A stretch of 64,000 nt of DNA, taken from assembly GCF_020859565.1 (NCBI RefSeq), contig NZ_JAJHUO010000001.1, positions 304,728-368,727 on the forward strand, in the 5' to 3' direction. The notes under the pieces were generated by a model. That model was not told the DNA's origin and did not search any database. It saw nothing but the letters and a program-made list of their open reading frames with translations. The DNA comes from Saccharothrix luteola (GTDB lineage: Bacteria > Actinomycetota > Actinomycetes > Mycobacteriales > Pseudonocardiaceae). Positions 22,699-53,380 of the stretch are shown one piece after another. Positions within the stretch are counted from its first letter, which is position 1, and each line of letters opens with the position of its first letter. The position numbers were made by a program, and so were the translations under genes.

Positions 22699-24729
22699 AT
22701 GACGACCGGAACACCTCCCGCGACGCCCTGGTTGCGCGCCACGTGGGCGAACTGGGTGGACGAGGCGGTGCGGCAGCGGCTGCGGATCGCGCGGTTGCTG
22801 CCGTCCGGGGGTGTGGGCCTGGTCGTGTTCCTGGCCGTGCTCAACCTCGTGCTCGGCCTGCTACCGGTCGCCTTCGTGGTCGCGACGAGCATGATGGTCG
22901 GCGAGGTGCCCGCCGCGGTCGACGGCGGGATCGGCAGCGCGGCCTGGGACCGGCTGACCTCGATCTTCCTGCTCGCCGCCGCCGCGTTCCTGCTCACCCA
23001 GATCCTCACCCCCGTGGGCAACGCCCTGGGCGAGCAGTTGCGCCGACGGGTGGACAGCGCGCTGCGGGACGACGCGATGGCGTTGATGCTGCGGCCGGTC
23101 GGCATCGGGCCGTTGGAGGACCAGCGCACGCTGGACGAGCTGAACGAGGCCGTGCGCGCCTTCGACCGCGACTGGGGCACACCGGGGCAGGCGTGCTTGG
23201 GCATGGTGGCGCTGATCGCCCGCTACACCCGCCTGCTGGCCCTGGTGGTCGTCATCGGACTGACGATCGGGTGGCCCGCGGGGCTCGGGGTCGGCGCGGC
23301 GGTGATGGCCTTCCGCTACGGCCAGCGCGGCGGGTTGCGCAAGTACTCGCGGGTGGGGCGCGACCTCATCGGCAGGATGCGCGAGATCGGCTACCTCAAC
23401 GAGCTCACGATGACCGACGTGGCGGCGAAGGAGATCCGGGTGTTCGGCCTCACCGGCTGGCTCGCGGATCGCTACGCGGACGTGTGGAAGACCGTGCGCA
23501 ACACCCTCGAACGGGCGCGCCGCCGCGTCTACCTGACCCCGTACCTGCTGCTGACGGCCGTCGGTCTGCTGCTGGCCGGTGCCGCGATGGTGTACGCCGC
23601 TCAACTCGGTGCGACCGGTCAGGTGAGCCTGACCGCGTTGGCGCTCGGGGTGCAGGCGGTCGCGTTGGCGATGTCGCTCGGCGGCCACTACCCCGAGTCG
23701 GACACCAGCACGCAGTTCGCGATGCAGTCGCTGACCGCGCTGCAACGGTTGCGCGACCGGCTCGACGAGCTGGACGAGGGGCAGCCGCGGCCCGGTCGGC
23801 TCGAGGTGCCCGCGGGCACGCCCGCCAGGTCGCTCGCCTTCGACCGCGTCGGCTTCCACTACCCCGGCTCGGACCGCACCGTGCTCGACGGCATCGAGCT
23901 GGAGCTGCCCGCCGGGCGCTGCACGGCGGTGGTCGGGGTCAACGGCGCGGGCAAGACCACCCTGGTGAAGCTGCTCGCGCGGCTGTACGAGCCGACGTCG
24001 GGTGCGGTGCGCGCGGACGGCGTGGACATCGCGGAGTTCGACCCGGTGCGGTGGCGCCGCCAGGTCGGGGTGATCTTCCAGGACTTCGTGCGCTACGAGT
24101 TGACCGCGGCCGAGAACATCGCGCTGGGCGCGGCGCACGTGCCGGTGGACCGGGCGGTGGTGCTGCGTGCCGCGCAACGGGCCGGGATCGCCGACGCGCT
24201 GCTCGCCCTGCCCGACGGCCTGGACACGCCGCTCTCGCGCGCCTACCCGGGCGGGACGGACCTGTCCGGCGGGCAGTGGCAGCGCATCGCCATCGCCCGT
24301 GCGTTCTACGCCTTGGAGGCGGGTGCGACGGTGCTGGTACTGGACGAGCCGACCGCGGCGCTGGACGTGCGCGCCGAGGTGGCGTTCTTCGACCGGTTCG
24401 TGGAGCTGACGCGCGGGGTGACCTCGCTGCTCATCTCGCACCGGTTCTCCAGCGTGCGGCGGGCCGACCACATCGTGGTGGTGGACGGCGGGCACGTGGT
24501 GGAGCGGGGCTCGCACGACGAGCTGGTCGCGGCGGGCGGCCACTACGCACGCCTGTTCGCCTTGCAGGCGAAGCGATTCGCCCGCGGGCTGGACGCCGAG
24601 GACGCCGAGGACACCGACGCCGTGGACGACGACGCGCCGGGCGCCGGCACGGCCACCAGGCACCCGGCAGATCAGCCGGCGGTCGATGGCGCGGCGGCGG
24701 ACGTCGTGGTGGAAGGGGTCGGCCGGTGA
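22699..24729 (+). CDS. ABC exporter half-transporter, TMD-NBD (subunit 1)
   Basis: A 676-residue half-transporter: a membrane domain to about residue 340, then an ATPase domain with Walker A GVNGAGKTTLVK, signature LSGGQWQRIAIARAF, Walker B VLVLDEPTAALD and switch His in LLISHRFSS. A 40-residue acidic tail rich in Asp, Ala and Glu follows. It forms a heterodimer with the next gene, which starts in its stop codon. The chain from this gene through hydroxymandelate oxidase is an overlapping operon, which suggests the exporter pumps out the cluster product. Confidence 0.9.
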   Translation: MTTGTPPATPWLRATWANWVDEAVRQRLRIARLLPSGGVGLVVFLAVLNLVLGLLPVAFVVATSMMVGEVPAAVDGGIGSAAWDRLTSIFLLAAAAFLLTQILTPVGNALGEQLRRRVDSALRDDAMALMLRPVGIGPLEDQRTLDELNEAVRAFDRDWGTPGQACLGMVALIARYTRLLALVVVIGLTIGWPAGLGVGAAVMAFRYGQRGGLRKYSRVGRDLIGRMREIGYLNELTMTDVAAKEIRVFGLTGWLADRYADVWKTVRNTLERARRRVYLTPYLLLTAVGLLLAGAAMVYAAQLGATGQVSLTALALGVQAVALAMSLGGHYPESDTSTQFAMQSLTALQRLRDRLDELDEGQPRPGRLEVPAGTPARSLAFDRVGFHYPGSDRTVLDGIELELPAGRCTAVVGVNGAGKTTLVKLLARLYEPTSGAVRADGVDIAEFDPVRWRRQVGVIFQDFVRYELTAAENIALGAAHVPVDRAVVLRAAQRAGIADALLALPDGLDTPLSRAYPGGTDLSGGQWQRIAIARAFYALEAGATVLVLDEPTAALDVRAEVAFFDRFVELTRGVTSLLISHRFSSVRRADHIVVVDGGHVVERGSHDELVAAGGHYARLFALQAKRFARGLDAEDAEDTDAVDDDAPGAGTATRHPADQPAVDGAAADVVVEGVGR

Positions 24730-26513
24730 TCGAGGTCGTTCGCGGTGGCTGGGAGTTGTTCCTCATCGCCTGGCGGGAGAGCCGGTACCGGTTGGTGCTC
24801 GCCATCGTGCTCATGATCGCCCAGGCGTCGGCGATGCCGCTGGCCGCGCCCGCCCTGGCCGCGTTGGCGGACTCGGCGCTGGCGGGGGACGTCCGGGGCG
24901 CGTCCGTGGCGGCGGTGCTGGTCGTGGTCGCGGTGATCGCCGCGCTGACCGCCGGGCACTTCGCCCACATCTTCTACTTCGAGCTCGGCGACCGCGCGGT
25001 GCCGCGCCTGGAGCGCGAGCTGATCGAGATGACCAACGGCTCGGCCGGGCTGGAGCACCACGAGCGACCCGAGTACGCCGACAAGATCCAGGTGCTGCGC
25101 AACGAGCTGCACCGGGCCGGGTGGGGCTCGATGGAGGGCCTGCTGAACAGCCTCGGCCTGCTGGTCGCGATCTCCCTCACCGCGGTCCTGCTGGCGCGGC
25201 TCAACCCGCTGCTGTTGCTGCTGCCGCTCGCGGCCGTGCCGCCGGTGCTGCTCGGGCGGCGGGCGGAGTCGATCGTCAACGGCGCGCGCGAGCGTTCGGC
25301 GCTGCCGTCCCGGCGCGCCAAGCACCTGTTCGGGCTCGTGGCGAACGCGGCGTCGGCCAAGGAGCTGCGCGTCGGCGGGTTGGAGTCGGAGCTGCGTGCG
25401 CGCCAGCGCCGGGCCTGGGACGACGCGTCGGCGCAGCTGTGGCGCGGCGAGCGCCGGGCCGTGCTGCTGCGCACCGGCGGTGAGCTGTTCTTCGCCGTGG
25501 CCTACGTGTTGGGCACGTTGCTGGTGCTGCGTGACGCGGTGGCGGGGCGGCGCGGCGTGGGCGACGTCCTGCTCGTGCTGACCTTGGCGTCACAGGTGAA
25601 CCAGCAGGTGACCTCGTCCGTGGCCACGTTGCAGGAGATGCAGCGCACCGGGCGGGTCATGGGCAACATGCGCTGGGTCCGGGCGCTGGTCGCGAGCCAG
25701 GCGCCGCCTCCGCCCGACCGGGACGTGCCCCGACGCGTCCGGGACGGCATCGAGCTGCGCGGCGTGTCCTTCACCTACCCGGGCACCGACCGGCCGGTCA
25801 TCGCCGACGTCGACCTCACCCTGCCCGCGGGTGGCACCGTCGCGTTCGTCGGTGAGAACGGCGCCGGGAAGACCACCCTGATCAAGCTGCTGTGCCGGTT
25901 CTACCCGGTCACCACCGGCACGGTCTCGCTGGACGGCACGGACTTCACCCGCTTCCCCGTGGACGGGTGGCGCGCCCGCATCGCCACGGGGTTCCAGGAC
26001 TTCGCCCGGTTCGAGATGCTCGCACGTGAGAACGTCGGCGTCGGAGAGCTGGCCGAGATCGAATCGGCCGACGCCGTGCACGACGCCCTGCGCCGCGCGC
26101 GCGCCGAGGACGTCCTGGACCGCCTTGAGGACGGTGTCGAAACCCGGCTCGGCAAGACCTACGCCGACGGCGTGGAGCTGTCCGGCGGGCAGTGGCAGAA
26201 GCTCGCGCTCGGCCGGGCCATGATGCGCCGCGAGCCGTTGCTGCTCGTCCTCGACGAACCGACCTCGGCGCTCGACGCGCAGGCCGAGCACCGGTTGTTC
26301 GAGCGGTACGCGGCCGGCGCGCGTGAGGTCGGCCGGCGGACCGGCGCCATCACCTTGCTCGTCTCGCACCGGTTCTCCACCGTGCGCATGGCCGACCTGA
26401 TCGTGGTGGTGGCCGGCGGGCGGGTGGCGGAACACGGTTCGCACGACGAGCTCATGGCCGCGAACGGCCTGTACGCCGAGCTGTACTCGATGCAGGCGGC
26501 GGCTTATGCGTGA
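24726..26513 (+). CDS. ABC exporter half-transporter, TMD-NBD (subunit 2)
   Basis: A 595-residue partner of the preceding half-transporter. About five to six hydrophobic segments precede an ATPase domain with Walker A GENGAGKTTLIK, signature LSGGQWQKLALGRAM, Walker B LLLVLDEPTSALD and LLVSHRFST. Both ATPase sites of the pair look competent. The GTG start overlaps the upstream stop by 4 bp, and its own stop lies within the next gene (8-bp overlap), tying the exporter to the arylglycine gene hmo. Likely substrate: the product of the cluster, by context only. Confidence 0.9.
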   Translation: MIEVVRGGWELFLIAWRESRYRLVLAIVLMIAQASAMPLAAPALAALADSALAGDVRGASVAAVLVVVAVIAALTAGHFAHIFYFELGDRAVPRLERELIEMTNGSAGLEHHERPEYADKIQVLRNELHRAGWGSMEGLLNSLGLLVAISLTAVLLARLNPLLLLLPLAAVPPVLLGRRAESIVNGARERSALPSRRAKHLFGLVANAASAKELRVGGLESELRARQRRAWDDASAQLWRGERRAVLLRTGGELFFAVAYVLGTLLVLRDAVAGRRGVGDVLLVLTLASQVNQQVTSSVATLQEMQRTGRVMGNMRWVRALVASQAPPPPDRDVPRRVRDGIELRGVSFTYPGTDRPVIADVDLTLPAGGTVAFVGENGAGKTTLIKLLCRFYPVTTGTVSLDGTDFTRFPVDGWRARIATGFQDFARFEMLARENVGVGELAEIESADAVHDALRRARAEDVLDRLEDGVETRLGKTYADGVELSGGQWQKLALGRAMMRREPLLLVLDEPTSALDAQAEHRLFERYAAGAREVGRRTGAITLLVSHRFSTVRMADLIVVVAGGRVAEHGSHDELMAANGLYAELYSMQAAAYA

Positions 26514-27567
26514 CGTGTGGTCGACGGCGGACGTCGAGCGGTTGGCCGCCGAGCGGTCGGCGCCGGACGTGTGGGACTACATCGCGGGCGGCAGCGGTGA
26601 GGAGGTCACGCTCGCCGCGAACCGGGCCGCGTTGGACCGGGTCGCGGTCGTGCCGCGGGCGCTGGTGGACGTCTCGACCTGCGACACGGGCTGCGAGCTG
26701 TTCGGTGTCACGTCGACGCTGCCGCTGGCCGTGGCTCCGATGGCCTACCAGCGGCTGATCCACGACGGTGGCGAGCGCGCGGTCGCGGCCGCCGCGGCGG
26801 CGGCCGGTGTGCCGTACGTCGTGAGCACGCTGAGCTCCGACCCGATCGAGGACGTGGCCGCGGCGGGCGGCACGACGTGGTTCCAGCTGTACTGGCTGCG
26901 CGACCGCGAGGTGATGGTGAAGCTGCTGCGCCGTGCCGAGGAGGTGGGGTGCGGTGCGGTGGTGCTGACGGTCGACGTGCCGGTGCTCGGGCGGCGGCTG
27001 CGGGACCTGCGCAACGGGTTCGCGCTGCCGTCCTGGGTGAAGCCGGTGAACACCGACGGCGAGGTGGGTGAGCGGGTGGAGGGCGACTCGGTGATCGCCC
27101 GGCACACCAGCGCGGTGTTCGACCCGTCGTTGAACTGGCGTGACCTGGAGTGGATCCGGGCGCGCACGAGTCTGCCGCTGGTGGTCAAGGGGGTGCTCGA
27201 CGCGGGGGACGCGGCGCGGGCCGTCGACCTCGGGGTGCAGGGTGTGGTGGTGTCCAACCACGGTGGGCGGCAGTTGGACGGTGCGGTGCCGAGTGCGGTC
27301 GCACTGCCGGCGGTCGTCGCCGCGGTGGGCGGGCGGTGCCCGGTGCTGCTGGACAGCGGGGTTCGCAGCGGGGTGGACGTCTTGCGGGCGTTGGCGCTCG
27401 GGGCCGCGGCGGTGCTGGTCGGCAGGCCCGTCCTGTGGGGACTCGCGGCGGGTGGTGAGCAGGGTGTGACAGCGGTGCTGGACGTGCTGCGGGCCGAGTT
27501 CGAGACGGCGCTGCGCCTGGCGGGCTGCCCGGACGTGGCCTCGGCCCGTCACCTCACCGTCGCGTGA
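26506..27567 (+). CDS. hmo: 4-hydroxymandelate oxidase (FMN-dependent)
   Basis: A 353-residue FMN-dependent alpha-hydroxy-acid oxidase. The family blocks are DVWDYIAGGSGEE, LAVAPMAYQRL, FQLYWLRDRE, VLTVDVPVLGRRLRD, then the active-site block PLVVKGVLDAGDA (Lys), VVVSNHGGRQLDGA (His-Gly-Gly-Arg) and LLDSGVRSGVDVLRALALGA. It resembles the Hmo enzymes of glycopeptide and nocardicin pathways, which oxidise L-4-hydroxymandelate to 4-hydroxyphenylglyoxylate. HmaS and HpgT genes 4-9 kb away support that choice over lactate oxidase. It overlaps the exporter gene by 8 bp, and its stop lies in the first arm of a nested hairpin. Confidence 0.85.
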   Translation: MRDVWSTADVERLAAERSAPDVWDYIAGGSGEEVTLAANRAALDRVAVVPRALVDVSTCDTGCELFGVTSTLPLAVAPMAYQRLIHDGGERAVAAAAAAAGVPYVVSTLSSDPIEDVAAAGGTTWFQLYWLRDREVMVKLLRRAEEVGCGAVVLTVDVPVLGRRLRDLRNGFALPSWVKPVNTDGEVGERVEGDSVIARHTSAVFDPSLNWRDLEWIRARTSLPLVVKGVLDAGDAARAVDLGVQGVVVSNHGGRQLDGAVPSAVALPAVVAAVGGRCPVLLDSGVRSGVDVLRALALGAAAVLVGRPVLWGLAAGGEQGVTAVLDVLRAEFETALRLAGCPDVASARHLTVA

Positions 27568-27702
27568 GTCCTACGCTCACGCCGCGAGAGTCCTACGTTC
27601 AGAGCACCTGAGTTCAACGCTCACGCCTAACGCCGTTCGCCGTGAGCGTTGAACTCATGGTCCGCGAGCGTAGGACTCTCGGCACGTGGACGTAGGACTC
27701 AC
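27564..27702. terminator. triple nested inverted repeat between convergent genes
   Basis: Three pairs of perfect complementary arms are arranged concentrically: 12 bp (27564-27575 with 27691-27702), 13 bp (27585-27597 with 27669-27681) and 17 bp (27609-27625 with 27641-27657, loop 15). The outer arms contain the stop codons of hmo and of the esterase. The units share related cores (GAGTCCTACG; GAGTTCAACG). It should act as a bidirectional terminator. There is no U-tract, as is usual in high-GC actinomycetes. Confidence 0.75.
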
Positions 27703-28598
27703 GGGATCGTGAGGTGCTGCCGCAGGAAGGTGGCGACCTCGGCCCTGGCTTCACGTGCCGCGTCCACGACACCCGACATGGCGAAGAAGCCGTGCGCCAC
27801 ACCGTCGTAGCGCGTGGCGACCACGGGCACACCGGCCTCACGCAGGCGTTCGGCGTACTGCTCCCCCTCGTCGCGGAGCGGGTCGTGCTCGGCCGTGATC
27901 ACCAGGGCCGGCGGTAGGCCGGTCAGGTCCTCGGCCAGCAGCGGCGAGACGAGTGGGTTTCGGCCGTCGTCCGGGCTCGCCAGGTAGTGGCTCCAGTACC
28001 ACGCGACGGACCGGCGGTTGAACGCGGCGGGGTCGTCGTTGACCCGCATGGACTCCGTCCCGCCCCGGTGGTCGGTGTTGGGGTAGACCAGCACTTGCGC
28101 GGCGAGCGCGAGTTCGCCGCGGGTGCCGAGGGCGGTCACGGCCGCCAGGTTGCCGCCCGCGCTGTCACCGGCCACGGCGAGGCGGTCGGGGTCGACGCCG
28201 AGGGAGGCGGCGTTCGCCGCGATCCAGGCGACGGCCGTGCGGCAGTCGTCCACGGCGGCGGGGAACTTGTGCTCGGGCGCCAGGCGGTAGCCGACGGTGA
28301 TCACCTGGCACGGCACCGCGTTGGCCAGCGCGCGGCAGATCTCGTCGGACGTCTCGATGCTCCCGAGCGCCCAGCCGCCGCCGAAGAAGTAGACCACGGT
28401 GGGCAGGGGCTCGGCCGTGTCCACCGGCCGGTAGATCCGGATCGGCAGGTCGCCGTCCGGTCCGGGCAGGTGGTGGTCGGTGACGTGGCGCACCGGCTCG
28501 CCCTGGCCCGCCGCCGCCCGGATCGCCGCGAGGTCGGCCTCACGGGCTTCCTCGACCGAGAGCGTGTACAGCGGCCGGACCTGCGGGTCCAGTGACAT
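27699..28598 (-). CDS. alpha/beta hydrolase, hormone-sensitive-lipase family
   Basis: A 299-residue cytosolic esterase. The oxyanion-hole motif is YFFGGGWALGS (the usual HGGG has become FGGG), the nucleophile elbow is VAGDSAGGNLAA, the acid lies in VITAEHDPLRDEGE, and His is in YDGVAHGFFAM. It is the last gene of the long minus-strand biosynthetic operon, 15 bp after the E1 beta gene. It may hydrolyse an ester or lactone in the pathway or inactivate the product; no specific substrate is evident. Confidence 0.85.
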   Translation of the reverse strand: MSLDPQVRPLYTLSVEEAREADLAAIRAAAGQGEPVRHVTDHHLPGPDGDLPIRIYRPVDTAEPLPTVVYFFGGGWALGSIETSDEICRALANAVPCQVITVGYRLAPEHKFPAAVDDCRTAVAWIAANAASLGVDPDRLAVAGDSAGGNLAAVTALGTRGELALAAQVLVYPNTDHRGGTESMRVNDDPAAFNRRSVAWYWSHYLASPDDGRNPLVSPLLAEDLTGLPPALVITAEHDPLRDEGEQYAERLREAGVPVVATRYDGVAHGFFAMSGVVDAAREARAEVATFLRQHLTIP

Positions 28599-28613
28599 GC
28601 GGACCTCCCGTGG

Positions 28614-29585
28614 TCAGTGTTTCAGCACCTTCTGGATCGCGGCCGTCAGCTGGGCGCGATCGGGCTGCACGGCGTGGTCCAACGCGAGGGCGAACGGCAC
28701 CACGGCGCCGTCCGGCCTGGTCACCCGGACCGGCGGGGCGAGCAGGTCGAACCGCTCGGCCGCGGTGGCGAGGACCTCGGCCGCGATGCCGCACATGCGG
28801 TTGGAGTCGTCGACCACCACCAGTCGACCGGTCCGCGCCACCGACGCGGCCAGCCCGTCCCAGTCGAACGGGTACGCGGTGCGCGGGTCGAACACCTCGA
28901 CCGACACCTCACCGGCCAGTTCATCGGCGACCGCGAGCGCGTCGTGCACGAGGTGCCCGACCGCGACGACCGTGACGTCCTCGCCCTCGCGGTGGATCCG
29001 GCCGACGCCGAGCGGCACCGGGGCCAGCGCGTCGAAGTCGACGTCCACCCGCACCCCGAGCGCCGCCGCCGGCGCGAACACCACCACCGGGTCGTCGTCC
29101 CGGACGGCGGTGACCAGCAGGCCGTAGGCGTCCTCGGGGGTGGCGGGCACGACCGTCTTCACGCCCGCGTGGGCGAACAGGGCGTACGGGTGGTCGGAGT
29201 GCTGCCCGGCCCAACCGGTCTTCGACCCGGAGCCGGGCACCAGGTAGGTCACCGGCACGCGGGCCTGACCACCGGTCATCAGCGAGAACTTGTGCGCCTG
29301 GTTGACGATCTGCTCGAACGCCAGGTACAGCAGCGCCGGGATCTGGAACTCGATCACCGGCCGCCGCCCGCGCAACGCCGCCCCGGTGGCGAAGCTCGTG
29401 AACGCCTGCTCCGACAGCGGCGTGTCGAGCACCCGGTCCGGCCCGAACCTCTTGAGCAGGCCCGCGGTCACGTTCGAGACCGCCACGCGGACGTCCTCGC
29501 CCAGCACGAACACCGCCGGATCGCGCGCCAGCTCGTCACCGAGCGCCCGGTTGAGCGCCTTCTGGTAGGACAACCACGGCATCAC
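28614..29585 (-). CDS. alpha-ketoacid dehydrogenase E1 beta-like subunit
   Basis: A 323-residue transketolase-like protein of the pyruvate/branched-chain dehydrogenase E1 beta family: SYQKALNRALGDELARDPAV, FVLGEDVRVA, GAALRGRRPVIEFQ, then SGSKTGWAGQHSDHPYALFAH, where the conserved His pair aligns, and the C-terminal LVVVDDSNRMCG. It pairs with the E1 alpha gene, which it overlaps by 4 bp. Similar pairs (PglB/PglC) occur in L-phenylglycine biosynthesis. No E2 or E3 gene is linked, so the acceptor of the acyl group after decarboxylation is unknown. Confidence 0.87.
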   Translation of the reverse strand: MMPWLSYQKALNRALGDELARDPAVFVLGEDVRVAVSNVTAGLLKRFGPDRVLDTPLSEQAFTSFATGAALRGRRPVIEFQIPALLYLAFEQIVNQAHKFSLMTGGQARVPVTYLVPGSGSKTGWAGQHSDHPYALFAHAGVKTVVPATPEDAYGLLVTAVRDDDPVVVFAPAAALGVRVDVDFDALAPVPLGVGRIHREGEDVTVVAVGHLVHDALAVADELAGEVSVEVFDPRTAYPFDWDGLAASVARTGRLVVVDDSNRMCGIAAEVLATAAERFDLLAPPVRVTRPDGAVVPFALALDHAVQPDRAQLTAAIQKVLKH

Positions 29586-30580
29586 CCACCACCGCCCGGA
29601 CGCGCCCGCATCCCGGTGGCGTACAGGTGGTCGAGCGCGCCCACCGGGTCGGGGTGGGGGCTGTCGAGCGCGAACGCGACCGCCGCGTCCACAGTGGACT
29701 CGACTTCGGCGTCGACCCTGGTCCGCTCCTCACCGGTCAGCCGCGCGCCCTGGATCTCGACCGGATCCCTTTCGCGTCCGCTGTGGACCTCGTCGTCGTC
29801 GCGGTAGCGGACCCGGGCTCTGTGCTCCCACGTGTGGTGCGCGTCGAACCGGTAGGTCAGGCACTCGACCAATGATGGCCCGCCGCCCGCACGAGCGCGG
29901 TCCACCGCCTCACGTGCCGCGTCGAGCACCGTGCGCGGGTCCATCCCGTCCACCGTCACCGACGGCATCCCGAACGCCGCGCCACGCCCGGTGATCGTGC
30001 CCGCCACCGCGTCGGCGACGGTCAGGGTGGTGGCGTAACCGTTGTTCTCGCAGACGAACAGCGCCGGCAACCGCCACAGGGCGGCCAGGTTCATGGCCTC
30101 CAGCAGCACGCCCTGGTTGACCGCGCCGTCACCGAAGAAGCTCACCGCGACCTGGTCGCCGCCCTCCTGCCGGGCGGCCCAGGCCGCCCCCGCGGTGATC
30201 GCGCCGTTCGCGCCGACGATCGCGTTCGCGCCGAGGATGCCCAACGCGAAGTCCGCGGCGTGCATCGATCCGCCGCGCCCCCGGTTCAGGCCGGTGGCGC
30301 GGCCGGCCAGCTCGGCGAGCACCCTGGCGGGATCGGCGCCCTTCGCGAGCACGTGCCCGTGCCCGCGGTGGGTGCTCGTGATCATGTCGTCCTCGCGCAG
30401 CGCCGCGCAGACACCGGCCGCGATGGCTTCCTGGCCCGTGTACGGGTGGATGCCGCCGACGATGTCGCCGGAGCGGACGAGCTCGACCGCCCGCTCCTCG
30501 AACCGGCGGATCAGCCGCACCGTCCGGTACAGGCCGATGTCGGTGTCCGGCGCCGGCCGCACCACGGTCAGGCCCGCCAC
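29582..30580 (-). CDS. alpha-ketoacid dehydrogenase E1 alpha-like subunit (ThDP)
   Basis: A 332-residue E1 alpha homologue: LIRRFEERAVELVRSGDIVGG, STHRGHGHVLAKGAD, GGSMHAADF, and the thiamine-diphosphate motif FFGDGAVNQGVLLEAMNLAALW, completed by CENNGYA. RFDAHHTWEHRARVRYR is the phosphorylation-loop region. With the beta subunit it should decarboxylate a 2-oxo acid. In this cluster the likely substrates are an arylglyoxylate from Hmo or an arylpyruvate. The GTG start overlaps the dioxygenase gene by 13 bp. Confidence 0.87.
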   Translation of the reverse strand: MAGLTVVRPAPDTDIGLYRTVRLIRRFEERAVELVRSGDIVGGIHPYTGQEAIAAGVCAALREDDMITSTHRGHGHVLAKGADPARVLAELAGRATGLNRGRGGSMHAADFALGILGANAIVGANGAITAGAAWAARQEGGDQVAVSFFGDGAVNQGVLLEAMNLAALWRLPALFVCENNGYATTLTVADAVAGTITGRGAAFGMPSVTVDGMDPRTVLDAAREAVDRARAGGGPSLVECLTYRFDAHHTWEHRARVRYRDDDEVHSGRERDPVEIQGARLTGEERTRVDAEVESTVDAAVAFALDSPHPDPVGALDHLYATGMRARPGGGG

Positions 30581-31476: not shown

Positions 31477-31480
31477 CCCT

Positions 31481-41346: not shown

Positions 41347-41369
41347 CGCAACATCGTGGCACACATTGA

Positions 41370-46373: not shown

Positions 46374-46465
46374 GGCGGCACTTCCCCTCTCCGGGAGGTC
46401 AACGGGAATCTGCACCACCGGGGTCGAGGCCGTCAAGCACGAGATCGGCACCGCATACGGGCTAT

Positions 46466-46477
46466 GGACCGCGGTCC
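46466..46477. promoter_or_regulatory. 12-bp perfect palindrome in divergent promoter
   Basis: GGACCGCGGTCC is a perfect palindrome 14 bases before the likely start of the divergent ligase gene, in a 118-base gap shared with the ACP-KS-C operon. Such close placement would suit a repressor of the rightward operon. It differs in sequence from the palindrome in the other divergent region of the cluster, so the two need not bind the same protein. Confidence 0.35.
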
Positions 46478-46491
46478 GGAACAACCGCAGA

Positions 46492-47946
46492 ATGTGCGCC
46501 ATGCCCTCGGCGATGCTGGATCTCGTGACGCACGAAGAGGCGCCGCCGCGGTCCCCTGCCGTCCACCTCGTCGGCGGACGGACGCTGTCCTACGGCGAGT
46601 TGGCCGCACTGGTCCGCGAGGTCGAGCGGTCCCTGCGCCACGACACCAAGGCGTTGGTGGTGTGCGCCGGGGACCGCGACCTGCCCACGCTGCTGACCTA
46701 CCTCGCCGCTCTGCGGCTCGGCCACACGGTCGCGTTCATGCCGGCCTCGGCCGAGATCCTCTCGGCGTACCAACCGGAATTCGTCGTGCCGGGTCCCGGT
46801 GACGGGCCGGACCTGGCCGACCTCGGCTACGTGCCCGGCGAGCCGGCAGGAGGGTCGCCGGTCCTCCGCAGGCGCTCGGCGCAACCGGCGGGCGACATCT
46901 TCCCGGACACGGCGCTGCTGCTGTCGACTTCCGGAACGACGGGGAGCCCCAAAGCGGTCCGACTCTCGTACGACGGTCTGGCCGACAACGCCGAAGCCAT
47001 CGCGCGCGTATTGGACATCACCACCGCGGAACGCGCACCGACCACTCTTCCTATTACTCATGCCTATGGGTTATCGGTGCTCAACAGTCACCTCCGGTCC
47101 GGCGCCAGTATCGTGTTGAGCGACCGGACGCCGCTCTCGCTGGCCATGTGGGACCACCTGACCAGAGCGGGCGCCACCTCGTTCGCCGCCGTGCCGACGA
47201 CCTACGCGGCGTTCGGCCCAGCGCACCTGAACCTGTTGGAGCGCACGGAGATCCGCACGATGACCCAGTCGGGCGCACGTCTCGGCGACGAGCTGACCAT
47301 GCGGCTGGTGCGGATGATGCAGCGGCGGCGGGGCCGGTTCTTCCCCATGTACGGCCAGACCGAGGCCACCTCGCGGATCACGTGCCTCGACCCGGCCGAC
47401 CTCCCGGACCGCCTCGGCTCGGTCGGAAGGGCGGTGCCCGGCGGCGTCATCACGATCGCGCCCACCGAAGCGCACCACCGGGCCGCACCCGGCGAGGGCG
47501 CCGTGCACTACCGCGGTCCCGGCGTGATGCTCGGCTACGCGACCGGTCGCGACGACCTCGCCCGAGGCCCCGAAGTGGACGTCCTGGACACGGGCGACCT
47601 CGGCTACCTGCGCGACGGCTACCTCTACCTGACCGGCCGCACCAAGCGGATCGTCAAGGTGCTCGGCGTCCGCACGAGCCTGGACGACCTGGAGCGCCTG
47701 GTCGAGCGGCCCGACCACCCGTCCGCCGTGGTCCGCGGCCACGACGACGTGGTGTACCTGTTCGGCGCGGGCGACCCGGACGTGCACGAGCAGCAGCGGC
47801 GGCGGGTGGCCGAGGCGCTGGGGGTGCCGAGTCGGCACGTGGTGGTCCGCCACGTCGACCGCCTGCCCCACACGCCCGGGGGCAAGGTCGACTACCGGGC
47901 GCTGGCCGCGGCCGTGGACAACCAGGAGGTCGGGCAGTGGAACTGA
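46492..47946 (+). CDS. adenylate-forming ligase 3
   Basis: A 484-residue AMP-forming ligase. A3 is ALLLSTSGTTGSPKAVRLSYDG, A5 is FFPMYGQTEATSRI, A7 reads VLDTGDLGYLRDGYLYLTGR, and A10 holds Lys in LPHTPGGKVDYRAL. All catalytic positions look normal. It resembles acyl-CoA/acyl-ACP synthetases more than NRPS A domains. Two ATGs nine bases apart are possible starts; I chose the first, but neither has a clear ribosome site. It is the first gene of the rightward operon and overlaps the next by 10 bp. Confidence 0.85.
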   Translation: MCAMPSAMLDLVTHEEAPPRSPAVHLVGGRTLSYGELAALVREVERSLRHDTKALVVCAGDRDLPTLLTYLAALRLGHTVAFMPASAEILSAYQPEFVVPGPGDGPDLADLGYVPGEPAGGSPVLRRRSAQPAGDIFPDTALLLSTSGTTGSPKAVRLSYDGLADNAEAIARVLDITTAERAPTTLPITHAYGLSVLNSHLRSGASIVLSDRTPLSLAMWDHLTRAGATSFAAVPTTYAAFGPAHLNLLERTEIRTMTQSGARLGDELTMRLVRMMQRRRGRFFPMYGQTEATSRITCLDPADLPDRLGSVGRAVPGGVITIAPTEAHHRAAPGEGAVHYRGPGVMLGYATGRDDLARGPEVDVLDTGDLGYLRDGYLYLTGRTKRIVKVLGVRTSLDDLERLVERPDHPSAVVRGHDDVVYLFGAGDPDVHEQQRRRVAEALGVPSRHVVVRHVDRLPHTPGGKVDYRALAAAVDNQEVGQWN

Positions 47947-48713
47947 CGCACTGGCGACAGCTGTCCGACCGCGGGCCGGACCTCGTGCTGTGCCTCGACT
48001 TCCCCGGCGGCCGGGCCGCGGCGGGGTTCGCGGACCTGGCGCCCGGTGTCCCGGTGGACGCGTGCTTCCTGCACCTCGCCGAGCCGGGCTCGGGGCCGCT
48101 CGACGCGTGCGTCGACCGCTGGGTGGCGGACGCGGTGGCGACCGGCCGGCCGGTGCGCGCGGTGCTGGGGTACTGCGCGGGGTCGTCGCTGGCGACCTGC
48201 GTCGCCGACGCCGTGGCCAAGTCCGCGCCGACCCCGGTGACCCTGCTCTTCGACGCCGAGGCGACCACAGCCGGCTCGCTGTCCCACCAGTTCACGTCCA
48301 CCCTGGAGACCTCCGCGGACCACCTGACCGCGGAGGAGCTGGACGGCGCGCGTGCCCTGGCGGACGAGCTGGTCGAGGCGCACCCGGACGACCTGCCCCG
48401 CATCGCCGCCGCCCTGGTCGACCGGTACGACGCGGTGATGGGCGAGGTCGCCGCACGGCTGTCGCTCAACCAGTTCTTCCGGCAGCAGCTCACCGGCGGG
48501 TTCACCGCCTACGTGGAGTACATGCTGCTGGCCGCCCAGGGCCGGTTCGACACGCGCTCCGGGACGCCGTTGTTCGTGTCCTCCAAGGAGCACGAGCCAC
48601 CCGTGGACGGCGCACGGCACCTCGCGCTGGACGTGGACCACACCGACCTGCTGCGCGAACCCGCGGTGCACGACCTCGTCGCCGAACTGCTGAAAGGAGA
48701 GCGCCCATGGTGA
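47937..48713 (+). CDS. thioesterase-like hydrolase with Cys nucleophile
   Basis: A 258-residue alpha/beta-hydrolase-like protein. The nucleophile elbow reads VLGYCAGSSLATCVADA, so Cys replaces Ser in GxSxG; the likely His is in LALDVDHTDLLREP. The middle lid region is helical (LTAEELDGARALADELVE; AARLSLNQFFRQQLT). Cys-type thioesterases are known in some PKS/NRPS systems, where they favour acyl transfer or macrocyclisation over hydrolysis. The GTG start lies within the ligase gene, and its stop overlaps the next gene by 7 bp. Confidence 0.75.
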   Translation: MELTHWRQLSDRGPDLVLCLDFPGGRAAAGFADLAPGVPVDACFLHLAEPGSGPLDACVDRWVADAVATGRPVRAVLGYCAGSSLATCVADAVAKSAPTPVTLLFDAEATTAGSLSHQFTSTLETSADHLTAEELDGARALADELVEAHPDDLPRIAAALVDRYDAVMGEVAARLSLNQFFRQQLTGGFTAYVEYMLLAAQGRFDTRSGTPLFVSSKEHEPPVDGARHLALDVDHTDLLREPAVHDLVAELLKGERPW

Positions 48714-49216
48714 ACGTGGCCGAGATAGCCGACGTCCTGTCCGCGCACCCCGGCGTGAGCCGGGCCGGGGTCGCCGTCGTGCGCCACGACGGGCGTGACG
48801 TCACGGTCGCCGCCGTCGAGCTGACCGAGTACCTGAGCGGGCCGGTGCTGCGCAACCACGTGCGCCACCGCCTCGGCGAGGACTGCGGGCTCAACGGCGT
48901 GCTCGTCGTGGACCGGCTCCCGATGGCGGACGGCGCGGTGGACGCCGAGCAGCTGGCGGCGGCCGTCGCGGACGGCCGGTGCACCCTGTTCGAGGACCCG
49001 CGCGACGACGTCGAGCGGCGGGTGGCGGAGATCTGGTCGACGCTGATGGACGTGCGGCCGGTCGGCGCGACCGACGACTTCCTGGAGCTGGGCGGCGACT
49101 CGCTGTCGGCGCTGGGCATCATCGCGGCCCTCGAAGCGGAGTTCGACCGGCCGCTGGACGTGTACGAGTTCATGACCGCGTCCAGCGTCCGGCGGCTGGC
49201 CGAGATGCTGCGGTAG
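48707..49216 (+). CDS. degenerate A-domain C-terminal subdomain fused to PCP
   Basis: A 169-residue two-part protein. Residues 1-88 follow the C-terminal subdomain of an adenylation enzyme (EIADVLSAHPGVSRAGVAVV; VLRNHVRHRLGED; LVVDRLPM), but the A10 position that should hold the catalytic Lys reads ADGAVDAEQL. Residues 95-169 form a PCP with the site FLELGGDSLSALGIIAALE. No N-terminal A subdomain is attached. It may be a carrier with a recognition platform for one of the free ligases. AGGAGA precedes the ATG. Confidence 0.8.
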   Translation: MVNVAEIADVLSAHPGVSRAGVAVVRHDGRDVTVAAVELTEYLSGPVLRNHVRHRLGEDCGLNGVLVVDRLPMADGAVDAEQLAAAVADGRCTLFEDPRDDVERRVAEIWSTLMDVRPVGATDDFLELGGDSLSALGIIAALEAEFDRPLDVYEFMTASSVRRLAEMLR

Positions 49217-49218
49217 CG

Positions 49219-50688
49219 ATGGCCCTCCCCGTGCACCGGCGGATCACCGACATCGCCCGCGCCGAACCCGGTCGGACGGCCCTGATCGGGTTCGACCCCG
49301 AGCTGGCCGAGCAGGTCCTGTCGTGGGGGGAACTCGCCGACTCGGTGGCGGACGCGGTGGCCGCGCTGCGGGCGGCGCTCGACCCGGACGTGCCGTCCTG
49401 CGTCGTCGTGGAGGCGGCCAACACCCTGGCCGCGGCGACCGGCATCGCGGCGGCGCTCGCGGCCGAGGTGCCCGTCTTCCCGCTGAACCCGGCCACCCCC
49501 GCGGCCGAGCGGGACGTCCTGTTCGGACTGCTCGGCCGCCGGTACGCCCACGTGCACCTGATGGACGCCGGGAACCGACCGGGGTCGGCGATCGTGTCGG
49601 CCACGCCACCGTCGACCCACGACGGCGCCGCGGCCTACCTGCTGGCGACCGGCGCGAGTACGGGCGTGCCGAAGATCTCGGCGCGACCGGGGCCGCTGCG
49701 CTACGACCCCGCGCGGACGCCGTCGCTGGTGATCCGGCAGACCGGGTGGCGGACCGGCCAGCGGCAGCTCATCGTCGGTCCGCTGTACCACGCGGCGCCG
49801 TTCACCGCGTTCGTGGACGCGCTGCTGGACCTGAACACCGTTGTCCTGCAACCGTTCTTCGCCGCGCAGTGGACGGTCGACCTGGTGCGGGAGCGCCGCA
49901 TCGAGTGGGTGCAGCTGACGCCGACGCACATGCGCGAGATCCTGATGCTCGCCGACGCGGACCCGGCGGCGTTCGACAGCCTGCGTGCGCTCCTGCACAC
50001 CGCGGCCTCCTGCGACGCGGACACCAAGCGCGGCTGGATCGACCTGCTCGGCCCCGAGCGGGTCTTCGAGCTGTACGGCGCGACCGAGGGCATCGGCGTG
50101 ACGCTGGCCCGCGGCGACGAGTGGCTGGCCCGGCCGGGCACGGTCGGGCGCGGCGTGCTGACCCAGCTCCGCGTCCTGGGCGACGACGGCGCACCGGTCG
50201 CGCCGGGCGAGGCCGGCACCGTGTTCATGCGCACCCCCCAGCGGGTGGGCCGCTCCGACTACGTCAACGACCAGGTCGTCCGCACCACCCCGGACGGGTT
50301 CGCCACGGTGGGCGACCGCGGCAGGCTCGACCGCGACGGCTACCTCTACCTCGAACCCCGCGACCACGGCACGATCAACGTGGGCGGCGAGAAGGTCGAC
50401 CCGAACGAGGTAGAGGCCGCGTTGCTGGCCCACCCCGCGGTGGTCGACGCCGTCGCGCTGGCCGTGCCGCACCCGACCCTCGGGTCGGTGGTCGGCGTGC
50501 GTGTGGTGCTGCGGCCCGAGGTGAACGTGCGCAAGGCCGACCTCGCCGCGCACTGCGGCCGGCGGCTGGCCGGCTACAAGATCCCGAAGCACTTCACGTT
50601 CGTCGACCGACTCCCCCGCTCCGCGGCCGGGAAGATCCAGCGCTGGCGGCTCGCCGCCGATCACGAGGGCGGTGCACCCACACGATGA
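49219..50688 (+). CDS. adenylate-forming ligase 4
   Basis: A 489-residue AMP-forming enzyme with a full C-terminal subdomain. A3 is diverged (AYLLATGASTGVPKISARP), A5 is VFELYGATEGIGV, A7 reads FATVGDRGRLDRDGYLYLEPR, A8 is NVGGEKVDPNEVEAALLAHPAV and A10 has Lys in RSAAGKIQRWRL. The lower part resembles 4-coumarate- and benzoate-CoA ligases, which suits an aromatic acid substrate. It sits between two PCP-bearing proteins and overlaps the second by 4 bp. Confidence 0.85.
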   Translation: MALPVHRRITDIARAEPGRTALIGFDPELAEQVLSWGELADSVADAVAALRAALDPDVPSCVVVEAANTLAAATGIAAALAAEVPVFPLNPATPAAERDVLFGLLGRRYAHVHLMDAGNRPGSAIVSATPPSTHDGAAAYLLATGASTGVPKISARPGPLRYDPARTPSLVIRQTGWRTGQRQLIVGPLYHAAPFTAFVDALLDLNTVVLQPFFAAQWTVDLVRERRIEWVQLTPTHMREILMLADADPAAFDSLRALLHTAASCDADTKRGWIDLLGPERVFELYGATEGIGVTLARGDEWLARPGTVGRGVLTQLRVLGDDGAPVAPGEAGTVFMRTPQRVGRSDYVNDQVVRTTPDGFATVGDRGRLDRDGYLYLEPRDHGTINVGGEKVDPNEVEAALLAHPAVVDAVALAVPHPTLGSVVGVRVVLRPEVNVRKADLAAHCGRRLAGYKIPKHFTFVDRLPRSAAGKIQRWRLAADHEGGAPTR

Positions 50689-51620
50689 ACCCGACCGTGG
50701 ACGATGTGCTCGAGACCGACTACCGGCGCCCCCGCGACCCGGTGGAGCTGTGGCTGGCCCGGCAGTGGCAGGAGGTCATCGGGTTCACCGTCGGCATCCG
50801 GGAGAACTTCTTCGAGGTGGGCGGCAACTCCCTGGACGCGGCCCGGGTCGTCAACGCCGTGTTCGACGAACTGGGCGTCCAGCTGCCCCTGAACGTGATG
50901 ACCGAGCACCCCACCGTGGAGAGCCTCGCCGCCCGGCTGCGCGACCACAACGGGCAGCTGTCCGACCCGCTGGTGGAGATCCAGCGCGGCGACGGGACCG
51001 CTCCCCCGTTGTTCCTGGTCCACCCGGCCAACGGGCAGGTCGGTCCGTACGCCGGGCTCGCCCAGTCGCTGGGCGAGGACTTCACCGTGTTCGGGCTCCA
51101 GGCGGCCGGGCTCTACTCGGACGTCGACCCGGTCCCCTCGGTGCGGTCCATGGCGCACACCTACGTCGAGGCCGTCCGCGCGGCGTGGCCGACCGGCCCC
51201 TACCTGCTCGGCGGCTGTTCGACCGGCGCGGCGATCGCCCACGAGATGGCCGCCCGGCTCACTGAGGACGGCGCCGAAGTGCGGCTGCTGGCCCTGGTCG
51301 ACCCCGAGCTCCTGGACATCGGACCCCGGTTCGACCAGCCGCCCGCTGACCTGGTCGCGGTCCTGGACCGGTGGAAGGAACTCGACCTCGTGCCGTCGGA
51401 CACGACCCCCGAGTTCGTCAGGCGTTCGGCGCGCGTGTGGCAGGCGAACGAGGACGCCGTCCGCGACTGGGAACCCCGTCCGTACTCCGGTCCGCTCGAT
51501 GTCCTCCTCAGCCCCTCGGGCGACCGGCCGGCGTTCGCGGACTGGCCGTCGGCGGCGGCGCGCGAGCACACGCCGCGGGACGGGGACGTGGCAGGCGTGC
51601 TGCGCGGGTTGATCGGCTGA
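50685..51620 (+). CDS. PCP-thioesterase didomain protein
   Basis: A 311-residue protein. Residues 20-90 form a PCP with the site NFFEVGGNSLDAARVVNAVF; residues 100-311 form a type I thioesterase with PPLFLVHPANGQVGPYAGLAQ, nucleophile Ser in YLLGGCSTGAAIAHEMA, and a C-terminal REHTPRDGDV near the expected catalytic His. This is the usual end of an NRPS line as a free protein, so assembly probably finishes on this PCP. Adjacent genes are ligase 4 and a condensation-like protein. Confidence 0.87.
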   Translation: MNPTVDDVLETDYRRPRDPVELWLARQWQEVIGFTVGIRENFFEVGGNSLDAARVVNAVFDELGVQLPLNVMTEHPTVESLAARLRDHNGQLSDPLVEIQRGDGTAPPLFLVHPANGQVGPYAGLAQSLGEDFTVFGLQAAGLYSDVDPVPSVRSMAHTYVEAVRAAWPTGPYLLGGCSTGAAIAHEMAARLTEDGAEVRLLALVDPELLDIGPRFDQPPADLVAVLDRWKELDLVPSDTTPEFVRRSARVWQANEDAVRDWEPRPYSGPLDVLLSPSGDRPAFADWPSAAAREHTPRDGDVAGVLRGLIG

Positions 51621-51625
51621 CCGGG

Positions 51626-53380
51626 ATGAGCACCTCGACCGACACCGGTCAGCGCAGGCGGCGCGTGCGGCTCACGCCCGTCGACGCCATCCAGGTCACC
51701 GCCACCGGATCGCGTGCGGCCGAGGGACCCGTCACCCTCGGCCAGCTCAACACCCTCCAGTGGTTGGAACCCGACGCCGACCACCTCGCCGCGGTCCTGC
51801 GCGTCGAACTGCCCGTGCCGCACGGGAGGTCCGCGGCCGACGTGGTCGAGGCGGCCTCCGTGCTGGTGGCCAGGCACGAATCTTTACGGACCACCTACAT
51901 CCGGGGCGAGGACCCACGTCAGGTGGTCGCGGCGACCGGCACGTTCACGCTCCACGTGTGCGCCCTCGGCGAAGGTCCGTGGGGGCCTCGCGACCGCCCG
52001 GCGGTCGCCGTGAGGCTGCTCGCGTGGTTGCGGGAACGGCGCGACACGGCGGCCACCACGCTGCGGATGGCGGTAGCCACCGACGAGCACGGCGCGGTCA
52101 TCGCCTGCGTCGCCGCGTTCTCGCACCTGGCCGTCGACTTCGGCTCCCTCGAGGTGCTCAAGCGCGAGTTCGCCGAGATGCTCGCGCACCCGGACCGCCG
52201 ACACGTGGGCGAACCCCGCCACCAGCCGCTGGACCAGGCCGAGCTGGAGGCGACGCCCGCCGAGCGACGTCGGACCCGGGCGGCGAACGACTACATGCGG
52301 GAGCTCGCGTGGCGGCAACCCCGCTGCCTGCTCGCGCTGCCCGGGGCCAGGGAGTCCGGCGAGTCACTGGCGGTGGAGCTGTTGTCCCCGGCCGCCGCCA
52401 TGGCGGTGCGACAGGTGGCGGCACGCAGCCGGTCCAGCCGGTCCTCCGTCGTGCTCGCCGCGACGTGCGCGGTGCTGGCGCGGCGCACCGGCTACCGCGA
52501 GCTGGTGTTCCCGTCGCTGTCGAGCAACCGCTTCGACCGCCACCTCGTCGACTTCGTCGGTTCCCTGGCACAGGGCAGCCTCCTCGCCGTCGACGTCGGC
52601 GACCGGAGCTTCGACGCGCTGGTCAAGCACACGTGGGCGGCGGTGCTGGAGGGGAGCAGGCACGGCAGGTACGACGGCGTCGAGCGCGGCACGTGGGACG
52701 ATCAGATCCGGCACGAACGGGGTATCCACTTCTCCTACGACCCGTTGTTCAACAGCCTCGTGCCCGAGTCGTGGTCCGGGGTCACCGCGGGCGTCAAGCA
52801 CCGGCCGGAGGAGATCACCGCCGCGCTGCGGCAGACGGAGCTGCGGTGGCGTCCGGTGCCCCACAACGGGACGCCGGTGCGGTTCGGCCTGGACGAGGTG
52901 GACGGCAGGGTCCGGCTCGACCTGTGGAGCGCGGACACCGGGCTGGTGCCGCGAGCCGAGATGGAGTCGTTGTTGCTGGCCGTCGAGCGCCTGCTGGTCG
53001 GCGCGGCCGGGGGTGACCTCGACGCCTCGCGCATCCGCGAGGTCACCGGCCTGGACCCGATCGCCCGCACGCCCGACTGGGTGCTGGTCGACTCGTGCTG
53101 GGTCGACCTCGCCGAGATGCAGCAGCTGCTCGACGAGGCCCTGGCGCCTTCGACGACCCGCATCTTCGGCTCGGTCGACGGCCGCGACCTGGTCGCCTAC
53201 CTGACCGCGACCGATGCCGTGCGGACACCCGAAGAGGCCCATGCCCGTTGCCTGGCCGCCCTGCCCGACCACCTCAACGCCCTCACCCCACGCCACTACG
53301 TCCTGTGCCCCACCGCCCCGGTCGACGTGGCGAACCCGGCCGCGTGGCCCGCACCCCTCATCACCGGCACCGGGCGTTGA
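51626..53380 (+). CDS. condensation-domain-like protein with extra C-terminal region
   Basis: A 584-residue protein; residues about 30-450 have a condensation-domain layout (VTLGQLNTLQWLEPDADHLA; VLVARHESLRTTYIRGED). The active-site block reads VAAFSHLAVDFGSLEVL: the catalytic His and Asp are kept, while the first His is Ser and the Gly is Phe. FVGSLAQGSLLAVDV and HFSYDPLFNSL correspond to later motifs. The last 110 residues (VLVDSCWVDLAEMQQLLDEAL onward) are an added region I do not recognise. It is the last biosynthetic gene, five bases after the PCP-TE. Confidence 0.75.
   Translation: MSTSTDTGQRRRRVRLTPVDAIQVTATGSRAAEGPVTLGQLNTLQWLEPDADHLAAVLRVELPVPHGRSAADVVEAASVLVARHESLRTTYIRGEDPRQVVAATGTFTLHVCALGEGPWGPRDRPAVAVRLLAWLRERRDTAATTLRMAVATDEHGAVIACVAAFSHLAVDFGSLEVLKREFAEMLAHPDRRHVGEPRHQPLDQAELEATPAERRRTRAANDYMRELAWRQPRCLLALPGARESGESLAVELLSPAAAMAVRQVAARSRSSRSSVVLAATCAVLARRTGYRELVFPSLSSNRFDRHLVDFVGSLAQGSLLAVDVGDRSFDALVKHTWAAVLEGSRHGRYDGVERGTWDDQIRHERGIHFSYDPLFNSLVPESWSGVTAGVKHRPEEITAALRQTELRWRPVPHNGTPVRFGLDEVDGRVRLDLWSADTGLVPRAEMESLLLAVERLLVGAAGGDLDASRIREVTGLDPIARTPDWVLVDSCWVDLAEMQQLLDEALAPSTTRIFGSVDGRDLVAYLTATDAVRTPEEAHARCLAALPDHLNALTPRHYVLCPTAPVDVANPAAWPAPLITGTGR

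Follow-up and report, generated by a model that had tools for sequence, protein, structure and literature searches.

The 64-kb stretch of Saccharothrix luteola DNA analyzed here (the window; genome 10.3 Mb) contains a gene cluster of 27 genes, g23 to g48, at 22.76–53.38 kb. Genes were taken from open reading frames filtered by codon-position score, their frames were then inspected by eye, and the predicted proteins were scanned against Pfam and NCBIfam. The cluster combines genes for the supply of 4-hydroxyphenylglycine (Hpg) with ketosynthases (KS), carrier proteins, condensation (C) enzymes and a homologue of Dieckmann cyclases, g44. With evenly balanced confidence, we propose that it specifies a tetramic acid, perhaps a glycosylated 5-(4-hydroxyphenyl) one, with a pyridone as a related alternative, assembled entirely by free-standing enzymes.

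Extent and composition of the cluster

All 27 genes are present and open, at 71–97% identity, within a 55-kb stretch of a congener (G290), where they fall into two blocks in rearranged order and the two ATP-binding cassette (ABC) genes and the adjoining oxidase gene g25 stand at the opposite side. In Labedaea rhizosphaerae (G377), 25 of the 27 genes were found, flanks included, and only the two ABC genes are absent. The flanking genes g20, g21, g49 and g51, the four compared, have no match in the G290 stretch. Synteny in these two genomes and the unmatched flanks thus place the cluster at about 22.7–53.4 kb, in agreement with the 22.6–53.4 kb given in a preliminary description of this DNA. Membership of g22, a beta-lactamase family gene at the cluster edge (21111–22256; 81% identity in G290), is uncertain; its ratio of nonsynonymous to synonymous substitution rates (dN/dS) is 0.58. 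Across 28 genes and up to four target relatives, dN/dS ranged from 0.08 to 0.70 and was below 1 in every pair computed, these being a subset of the gene–target combinations.

Gene calls and Pfam revealed no modular polyketide synthase (PKS) or nonribosomal peptide synthetase (NRPS) gene in the cluster, as expected from a longest gene of 657 aa, and the preliminary description was right on this point. Its list of discrete parts also held up. Each class of Hpg gene (HmaS, Hmo and HpgT) was recovered at about the coordinates given there; the four ligases are g32, g35, gX and g46; and the six carrier domains are the acyl carrier proteins (ACPs) g31, g38 and g42 and the peptidyl carrier protein (PCP) domains of g34, g45 and g47. 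The three condensation-type proteins are g34, g40 and g48, with the correction that the C domain of g34 lacks its catalytic His. A FabF-type KS (g41), two proteins of the 3-oxoacyl-ACP synthase III (KAS III) fold (g37b, g39), a GT1 glycosyltransferase (g37a) and an exporter (the ABC pair g23, g24) were found as well. Of three proposed thioesterases (TEs), two stand (g36 and the TE domain of g47), whereas the third, g44, is a Dieckmann cyclase homologue. The overall interpretation, a discrete-enzyme hybrid that supplies Hpg, performs ketide and amide chemistry and includes a glycosyltransferase, is retained, but a tetramic acid is preferred to the plain amide as the product. An E1 alpha/beta pair, a PhyH oxygenase, an esterase and the placement of ligase g35 in a diazotase clade come in addition to that list. 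We found no description of this gene set in the open literature, a search that most subscription papers fall outside; within that scope, the earlier statement that no described pathway has this set stands.

A Dieckmann cyclase homologue within a six-gene block

The g44 gene (47937–48713, + strand) has no Pfam or NCBIfam match. When a profile of eight homologues was compared with all Protein Data Bank (PDB) sequences, it matched NcmC (E 2.4e-24) and no other protein up to E 0.1. The best four Foldseek matches are also NcmC (E 2.5e-13 to 1.4e-12, ~30% identity), with thioesterases following at worse values from 1.7e-6. Cys80 of g44 aligns to NcmC Cys89, which is Ser in the C89S variant entry, and the putative triad Cys80-Asp106-His235 is invariant in eight of eight rows. 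In nocamycin biosynthesis by Saccharothrix syringae, formation of the tetramic acid is attributed to NcmC, and the available sections of the two sources describe enzymes of this type as combining a Cys-Asp-His triad with a four-helix lid (PMC5466765, PMC10956176). The AlphaFold model of g44 contains helices at residues 112–125, 132–148, 153–174 and 179–200, with a mean predicted local distance difference test (pLDDT) score of 67.4 and values below 50 in the last 57 residues. Overall, g44 is homologous to Dieckmann cyclases of the NcmC/TrdC type and is a predicted cyclase, which makes a tetramic acid a better-founded product than a plain amide.

The linear aryl amide of the preliminary description would require g44 to act in release or editing as a thioesterase-like enzyme of the usual kind. 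Its model, of middling quality, looks like an alpha/beta hydrolase, and two other TE domains lie in the cluster. We nevertheless consider this role unlikely, because the g44 profile matches NcmC only and reaches no PDB thioesterase below its E-value limit, and because Cys replaces Ser in all eight rows.

Among 397 genomes sampled from the order, the g44 profile matched in 19, exceeding 300 bits only in the source genome (G000), G290, G377 and Micromonospora wenchangensis (G228). In the last of these, six genes are kept in the order gX-g44-g45-g46-g47-g48, at 72, 62, 67, 74, 57 and 59% identity. In the window, the block opens with the acid ligase gX, whose start codon is provisional (46492–47946, +; PF00501 3.1e-36), and continues after g44 with a remnant of an adenylation (A) subdomain fused to a PCP in g45 (48707–49216, +; PF13193 3.8e-5, PF00550 4.8e-14), the acyl-CoA-ligase-type enzyme g46 (49219–50688, +; PF00501 4e-26, PF13193 4.8e-16), the PCP-TE didomain g47 (50685–51620, +; PF00550 9.8e-13, PF00975 2.4e-20) and the divergent condensation enzyme g48, which keeps HxxxD in three of three rows (51626–53380, +; PF00668 3.6e-10). 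The Micromonospora block adjoins an ACP, a TE, a GT1 and a free C enzyme; Hpg genes and KAS III are unmatched within the 37 kb read, and the KAS III cluster of this genome lies on a separate contig (C3). The six-gene block therefore appears to be portable, recurring in another setting. Of 17 places with weaker g44 homologues, seven were read, and at five (G185, G393, G390, G228C4 and G076, the exceptions being G322 and G097) a gene of at least 900 aa that matches C-PCP or KS at 27–33% lies nearby, as would be expected for tetramate clusters. Whole-genome searches of 20 genomes bearing the g35/KAS III/GT1 core returned a g44 match in five: G000, G290, G377, G228 and, weakly, G091.

Arylglycine genes and an E1 pair

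The g30 protein (31481–32563, −) has 2r5v as its best PDB match, scoring 318 bits against 2r5v and 299 against 3zgj, both of which we take to be 4-hydroxymandelate synthases (HmaS), compared with 240 bits against the 4-hydroxyphenylpyruvate dioxygenase (HPPD) 1t47. The sequence NIKAL occurs near the C-terminus in 18 of 20 listed homologues, the remaining two not being readable at this position, where Ile in place of Phe presumably separates HmaS from HPPD. We therefore assign g30 as HmaS rather than HPPD. Roles as Hmo and HpgT are predicted from family and synteny for g25, a flavin mononucleotide-dependent 2-hydroxy-acid oxidase of the hydroxymandelate oxidase type (26506–27567, +; PF01070 2.3e-130), and for g33, an HpgT-like class I aminotransferase (34363–35712, −; PF00155 1.2e-29). 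In relatives, g25 occurs together with HmaS and HpgT. The nearest solved chains to g33 are general aminotransferases, in a comparison set without an HpgT reference.

The HmaS gene is adjoined by g29, encoding a PhyH-type oxygenase (30568–31476, −; PF05721 3.1e-23), and a PhyH gene occupies the same position in Actinokineospora loci. Next come g27 and g28, encoding the beta and alpha chains of a thiamine diphosphate-dependent E1 enzyme (28614–30580, −; PF02779/PF02780, PF00676), with no E2 gene found in the cluster, and g26, encoding an esterase of the hormone-sensitive lipase type (27699–28598, −; NF058653 LipP1 371.2 bits, cut-off 350). To place these genes in context we used a genome scan that yielded 116 relatives of g37b, from which 79 loci, all actinobacterial, were kept; relatives located through this KAS III protein reach 95% identity in Saccharothrix. 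Gene-based counts over loci may undercount short or split genes, and a few were recounted by tblastn. Both E1 genes are present in 13 of the 79 loci, and HmaS is also present in 11 of these 13. The E1 pair occurs without HmaS within the stretches of L071 and L099, the latter having Hmo and HpgT, and E1 without HmaS is found in G065, where the stretch reaches a contig end.

Probable remains of an NRPS module

The g34 protein (35709–37382, −; PF00668, PF00550) is a C-PCP protein without an A domain. Its orthologues are 1078 aa long in L054, 986 in L060, 878 in L056 and 873 in L057, and 545–565 aa in L053, L055, L059 and L090, with 550 aa in G290 and 557 aa in the window. The long forms contain an A-domain remnant that lacks the A3 motif (L054: VFTSGPADGPTGVDITH), and the amino-acid Asp235 is retained in the remnants of the three long orthologues aligned. 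None of 11 aligned rows, among which one genome appears twice, retains the second His of HHxxxDG in the C domain, and this domain is probably dead. The g34 protein looks like an eroded C-A-PCP module, and we infer a loss, not a gain, of the A domain. The A10 Lys of g45 is absent in all eight rows, and at least some of the free NRPS parts seem to be left over from a modular NRPS. Species by species, the g34 relatives display an A domain in several stages of loss with the carrier retained, and this size series makes the origin of dissociated systems from modular ones testable.

Dead domains in g34 and g45, and a dN/dS for g34 of 0.41–0.51, among the higher values of the cluster, would also be found if the whole cluster were decaying and non-functional. 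We regard this as highly improbable, as every gene is open in the congener and dN/dS nowhere reaches 1 among the computed pairs. The dead motifs are, moreover, common to the aligned relatives, so these losses are old.

Ketosynthases, carriers and condensation enzymes

The FabF-type KS g41 (44881–46098, −; TIGR03150 1.3e-131, 439 bits against a cut-off of 494; NF005589 430 bits against a cut-off of 387) has an intact Cys-His-His triad, with KS motifs preserved in 28 of 28 rows. It is the only KS of the window, in which no chain length factor (CLF) gene was found; Actinokineospora relatives encode a protein with Pfam KS domains for which CLF-like is our working label. The ACP g42 (46113–46502, −; PF00550 7.9e-5) lies next to g41, and a second carrier, the 84-aa g31 (32544–32798, −), lies next to the acyl/aryl-acid ligase g32 (32845–34254, −; PF00501 5e-28). 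Having no Pfam match, g31 was recognized from its I-E-S-M-E-L motif and its homologues, the Ser motif being present in 10 of 10 aligned rows.

A further unit comprises the KAS III g37b (41404–42333, +; PF08541 9e-10), the ACP g38 (42362–42643, +; PF00550 9.3e-8) and g39, a shortened KAS III-fold protein without a family (42643–43419, +; AlphaFold pLDDT 82.5; Foldseek FabH 1.8e-9). The ACP sits between the two KAS III-fold proteins, and g39 is a probable partner of g37b. Aligned to FabH, the g37b triad is Cys115-His233-His264, invariant in 18 of 18 rows; the Cys-His-Asn triad of decarboxylating KAS III enzymes is thus altered, with His264 in place of Asn. Homologues of the ATP-grasp protein and the pyridoxal phosphate (PLP) decarboxylase of L087, which we take to resemble BtrJ and BtrK of butirosin, are both present in 34 of the 79 loci, all distant (L082–L131). 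Those distant KAS III/ACP/g39 loci that were read often have acyl-CoA dehydrogenases too. Three kinds of neighbor that might load g38 suggest an amino-acyl or comparable starter on this carrier.

Plasmid searches with KAS III and g35 gave distant kin only. On a Streptomyces decoyicus plasmid (L149), remote relatives of the KAS III/ACP/g39 unit accompany genes for an ATP-grasp protein and for a PLP decarboxylase. The Rahnella aceris plasmid pRAHAQ01 (L150) carries a KAS III relative of ~30% identity in a cluster that also encodes three adenylating enzymes, further 3-oxoacyl-ACP synthases, a P450 and a MupA-type monooxygenase.

The free-standing condensation enzyme g40 (43467–44888, −; PF00668 6.7e-25) has an intact HxxxDG motif, and its nearest solved relatives are 6cgo (E 1.4e-14), Txo2, 4znm (1.5e-11), Txo1 and 8z0q. 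We take 4znm to be SgcC5 and 6cgo to be the enacyloxin enzyme, both free-standing C enzymes that transfer a carrier-bound acyl group to a soluble acceptor, although their similarity to g40 is weak. The remaining genes encode a type II thioesterase, g36 (39206–40177, −; PF00975 8e-27), the MGT-like GT1 glycosyltransferase g37a (40204–41364, −; TIGR01426 1.1e-35, 123.5 bits, below the cut-off of 260) and the two ABC exporter half-transporters g23 and g24 (22756–26513, +; PF00005 7.8e-29 and 3.2e-27; 86% and 96% identity in G290).

A ligase of the diazotase clade

The ANL enzyme g35 (37386–39032, −) aligns over its full length with 8ztz (346.3 bits) and with 8tf7/9bq0 (313.8 bits), which are identified as Tri17 in the accessible part of PMC11705231. 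By homology, rather than from a tree, we place g35 in the CreM/AvaA6/Tri17 (diazotase) clade. Its P-loop (A3) is altered, reading GTTRMPTP where 8ztz and Tri17 have GTTG-x-PK. Among 48 homologues, with some genomes counted twice, R combined with T or A occupies these positions in 36, the family of the window included, and G and K in 12.

If g35 were a nitrite-using, ATP-dependent diazotase, the product could contain an N-N or diazo group. The full-length alignments point in this direction, as does a match of 419.1 bits to the AvaA6 model. This score, however, is far under the model's cut-off of 975, both the Gly and the Lys of the P-loop are replaced, and nitrite-forming genes were not found: the 2371 proteins of the loci contain no lyase-superfamily signature, and no nitrosuccinate pair was seen by eye beside four of the five PF00206 genes of the genome, the fifth being that of C58. 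About half of the ava-like clusters likewise lack nitrite-forming (aspartate-nitrosuccinate, ANS) genes, according to the portion of PMC10777205 available. We consider it more likely that g35 works as an acid ligase, or is a relative that does not adenylate, and give diazotization only a very slim chance.

Proposed pathway

For the tetramic acid, we propose a route in which tyrosine-derived 4-hydroxyphenylpyruvate would be converted to Hpg by HmaS, Hmo and HpgT, while the ligases would load acid units onto free carriers. A beta-ketoacyl chain may then be built by the FabF-type KS together with the KAS III/ACP/g39 unit, and one of the free-standing C enzymes, g48 or g40, would couple it to the amine of Hpg. 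Cys80 of g44 would accept the resulting N-beta-ketoacyl-aminoacyl thioester, and C-C ring closure would give a 3-acyl-5-(4-hydroxyphenyl)tetramate, putatively glycosylated by the GT1 enzyme and exported by the ABC pair. Incorporation of Hpg, the structure of the chain, the product, its glycosylation and the loading route are what we infer from the genes. A more specific version is offered only tentatively: what would be the first fully dissociated (type II) tetramate pathway, with an NRPS module eroded in place into separate parts, yielding glycosylated 5-(4-hydroxyphenyl)tetramates. In this version the portable block would have combined with differing upstream pathways across Saccharothrix, Labedaea and Micromonospora, and an enzyme other than a classical adenylation domain would load the amino acid.

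Several observations weigh against this proposal. Residues 202–258 of the g44 model, including His235, have pLDDT values below 50, too low to judge the geometry of the triad. Whole-genome searches found g44 in none of the five other core-bearing genomes with HmaS (G132, G192, G338, G014 and G058, the HmaS of G014 being seen in locus L089). Fourteen KAS III loci carry HmaS, with g44 inside the stretch in three (L058, L059, L090) and not in the other 11. Eight of ten core-bearing Micromonospora genomes have no g44 homologue, one has a weak match, and G228 has strong ones at other places. In HmaS-bearing relatives without g44, the Hpg genes would therefore contribute to a compound whose synthesis does not involve this cyclase. 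In addition, comparison with two reference A domains identified no amino-acid-type adenylation domain in the cluster, the Asp235 position being Ala in gX, g46 and g35 and Val in g32, so that the four ligases do not account for amino-acid loading. The absence of this step points to an unrecognized loading route. In Actinokineospora relatives, the gene for a class II tRNA-synthetase-like protein (PF00587) separates g39 from the E1 genes and suggests an alternative means of loading an amino acid. Lastly, HmaS, Hmo and E1 could supply an aroyl unit instead.

This last point leads to a tetramate with the arylglyoxylate branch in its acyl part, for which E1 alpha/beta would make a carrier-bound 4-hydroxybenzoyl thioester from 4-hydroxyphenylglyoxylate, the KS would extend it and another amino acid would enter the ring. 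The sharing of clusters by E1, HmaS and PhyH (with HmaS in 11 of the 13 loci that have the E1 pair) and the occurrence of HmaS without g44 in relatives are in keeping with such a route. So is the likeness of g32, g31, g42, g41 and g35 to the ligase-ACP-ACP-KS-A6 kit that extends an aryl acid in the ava and cma systems, as the sections available to us describe it (PMC10777205). On the other hand, HpgT would be left without a clear use and the window has no CLF gene. The stretches of L071, L099 and G065 have E1 without HmaS, so the substrate of E1 need not be aromatic. On balance we think this arrangement rather improbable.

Relation to known systems

The proposed Hpg-derived tetramate pathway shares an NcmC homologue with a catalytic Cys, and its genus, with the nocamycin (ncm) system of Saccharothrix syringae. 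That system has five type I PKSs and a C-A-PCP NRPS, as far as the available text of PMC5466765 goes, whereas the window lacks both and contains Hpg genes. The bripiodionen (bpd) cluster of Streptomyces reniochalinae also has an NcmC-type Dieckmann cyclase, together with type I PKSs, a discrete adenylation-thiolation (A-T) protein, BpdD, and an Asn unit. Its C-A-T protein has a naturally silent A domain and obtains the amino acid from another protein, a situation to be compared with that of g34 (PMC10956176, available sections). In the window, by contrast, the A domain has disappeared, the cluster retains no amino-acid A domain and all enzymes are discrete. Bacterial tetramate PKS-NRPS clusters have a type I PKS whose chain passes to a terminal C-A-T module, and the window has neither part.

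The ava and cma highly reducing type II PKS systems resemble the window in having an acid ligase, two ACPs, a FabF-type KS and an AvaA6-clade ligase (PMC10777205, in the part available). In contrast to them, the window has no CLF, no 3-amino-4-hydroxybenzoate (3,4-AHBA) synthases were noticed in it and no nitrous acid genes were found, and it contains in addition C enzymes, KAS III, Hpg genes, a Dieckmann cyclase and a glycosyltransferase. The Actinokineospora locus of G132, which includes Hpg genes and in which no 3,4-AHBA synthases were noticed either, reads ligase (g32-like)-ACP-ACP-CLF-like KS-KS fragment-g35-KS, an order resembling cmaA1-A6 as given in the accessible text (PMC10777205). 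The window has the same parts minus the CLF. Its Hpg supply of HmaS, an Hmo-type oxidase and an HpgT-like aminotransferase resembles that of the glycopeptides and the calcium-dependent antibiotic, and these known Hpg users are modular NRPSs. Paulomycin, a glycoside with a KAS III-like acyltransferase in the sections of PMC4425429 available, was considered as a relative and set aside.

Tetramic acids include antibiotics, and according to the available parts of two studies bacteria assemble them with multimodular PKS-NRPS proteins (PMC10956176, PMC5466765). If our proposal is correct, 27 small proteins would perform the same task and would be easier to reconstitute and recombine.

Related loci and neighboring genes

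In loci from Labedaea (L056, L057, L060) and Micromonospora (L061–L069), the g35/KAS III/GT1 core adjoins genes for UbiA, geranylgeranyl diphosphate (GGPP) synthase, a flavin-dependent monooxygenase and a squalene-hopene cyclase (SHC)-like cyclase, along with an aminotransferase, an O-methyltransferase, TauD and P450s. By gene-based count, UbiA is present in all nine Micromonospora loci and in three of nine Saccharothrix-group loci. Two Saccharothrix relatives also carry the UbiA, GGPP synthase, monooxygenase and SHC-like cyclase genes beside the core. Loci that combine the core with UbiA constitute a meroterpenoid-type family for which no description was found in the open literature. A terpenoid product was set aside for the window itself, since seven such proteins had no tblastn match in its 64 kb.

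Two tandem Ser/Thr kinase-WD40 proteins adjoin the cluster (53548–57437); g49, the first of the two genes and the sole one compared, is unmatched in all 22 related stretches. In the source genome, pairs of AMP-binding genes with identical scores lie on different contigs (C39/C45, C8/C26 and C5/C15), and together with a contamination of 8.84% this suggests duplicated stretches in the assembly. Upstream of the cluster, a set comprising a PfkB kinase, a 2-keto-3-deoxy-6-phosphogluconate (KDPG) aldolase, an MR_MLE enolase, a short-chain dehydrogenase/reductase, a GntR regulator, a GH35 protein and a permease (10532–18109) looks like a galactonate or galactoside pathway. Two adjacent MEDS-domain proteins, one with a histidine-kinase-like ATPase domain, are encoded at 8242–9989.

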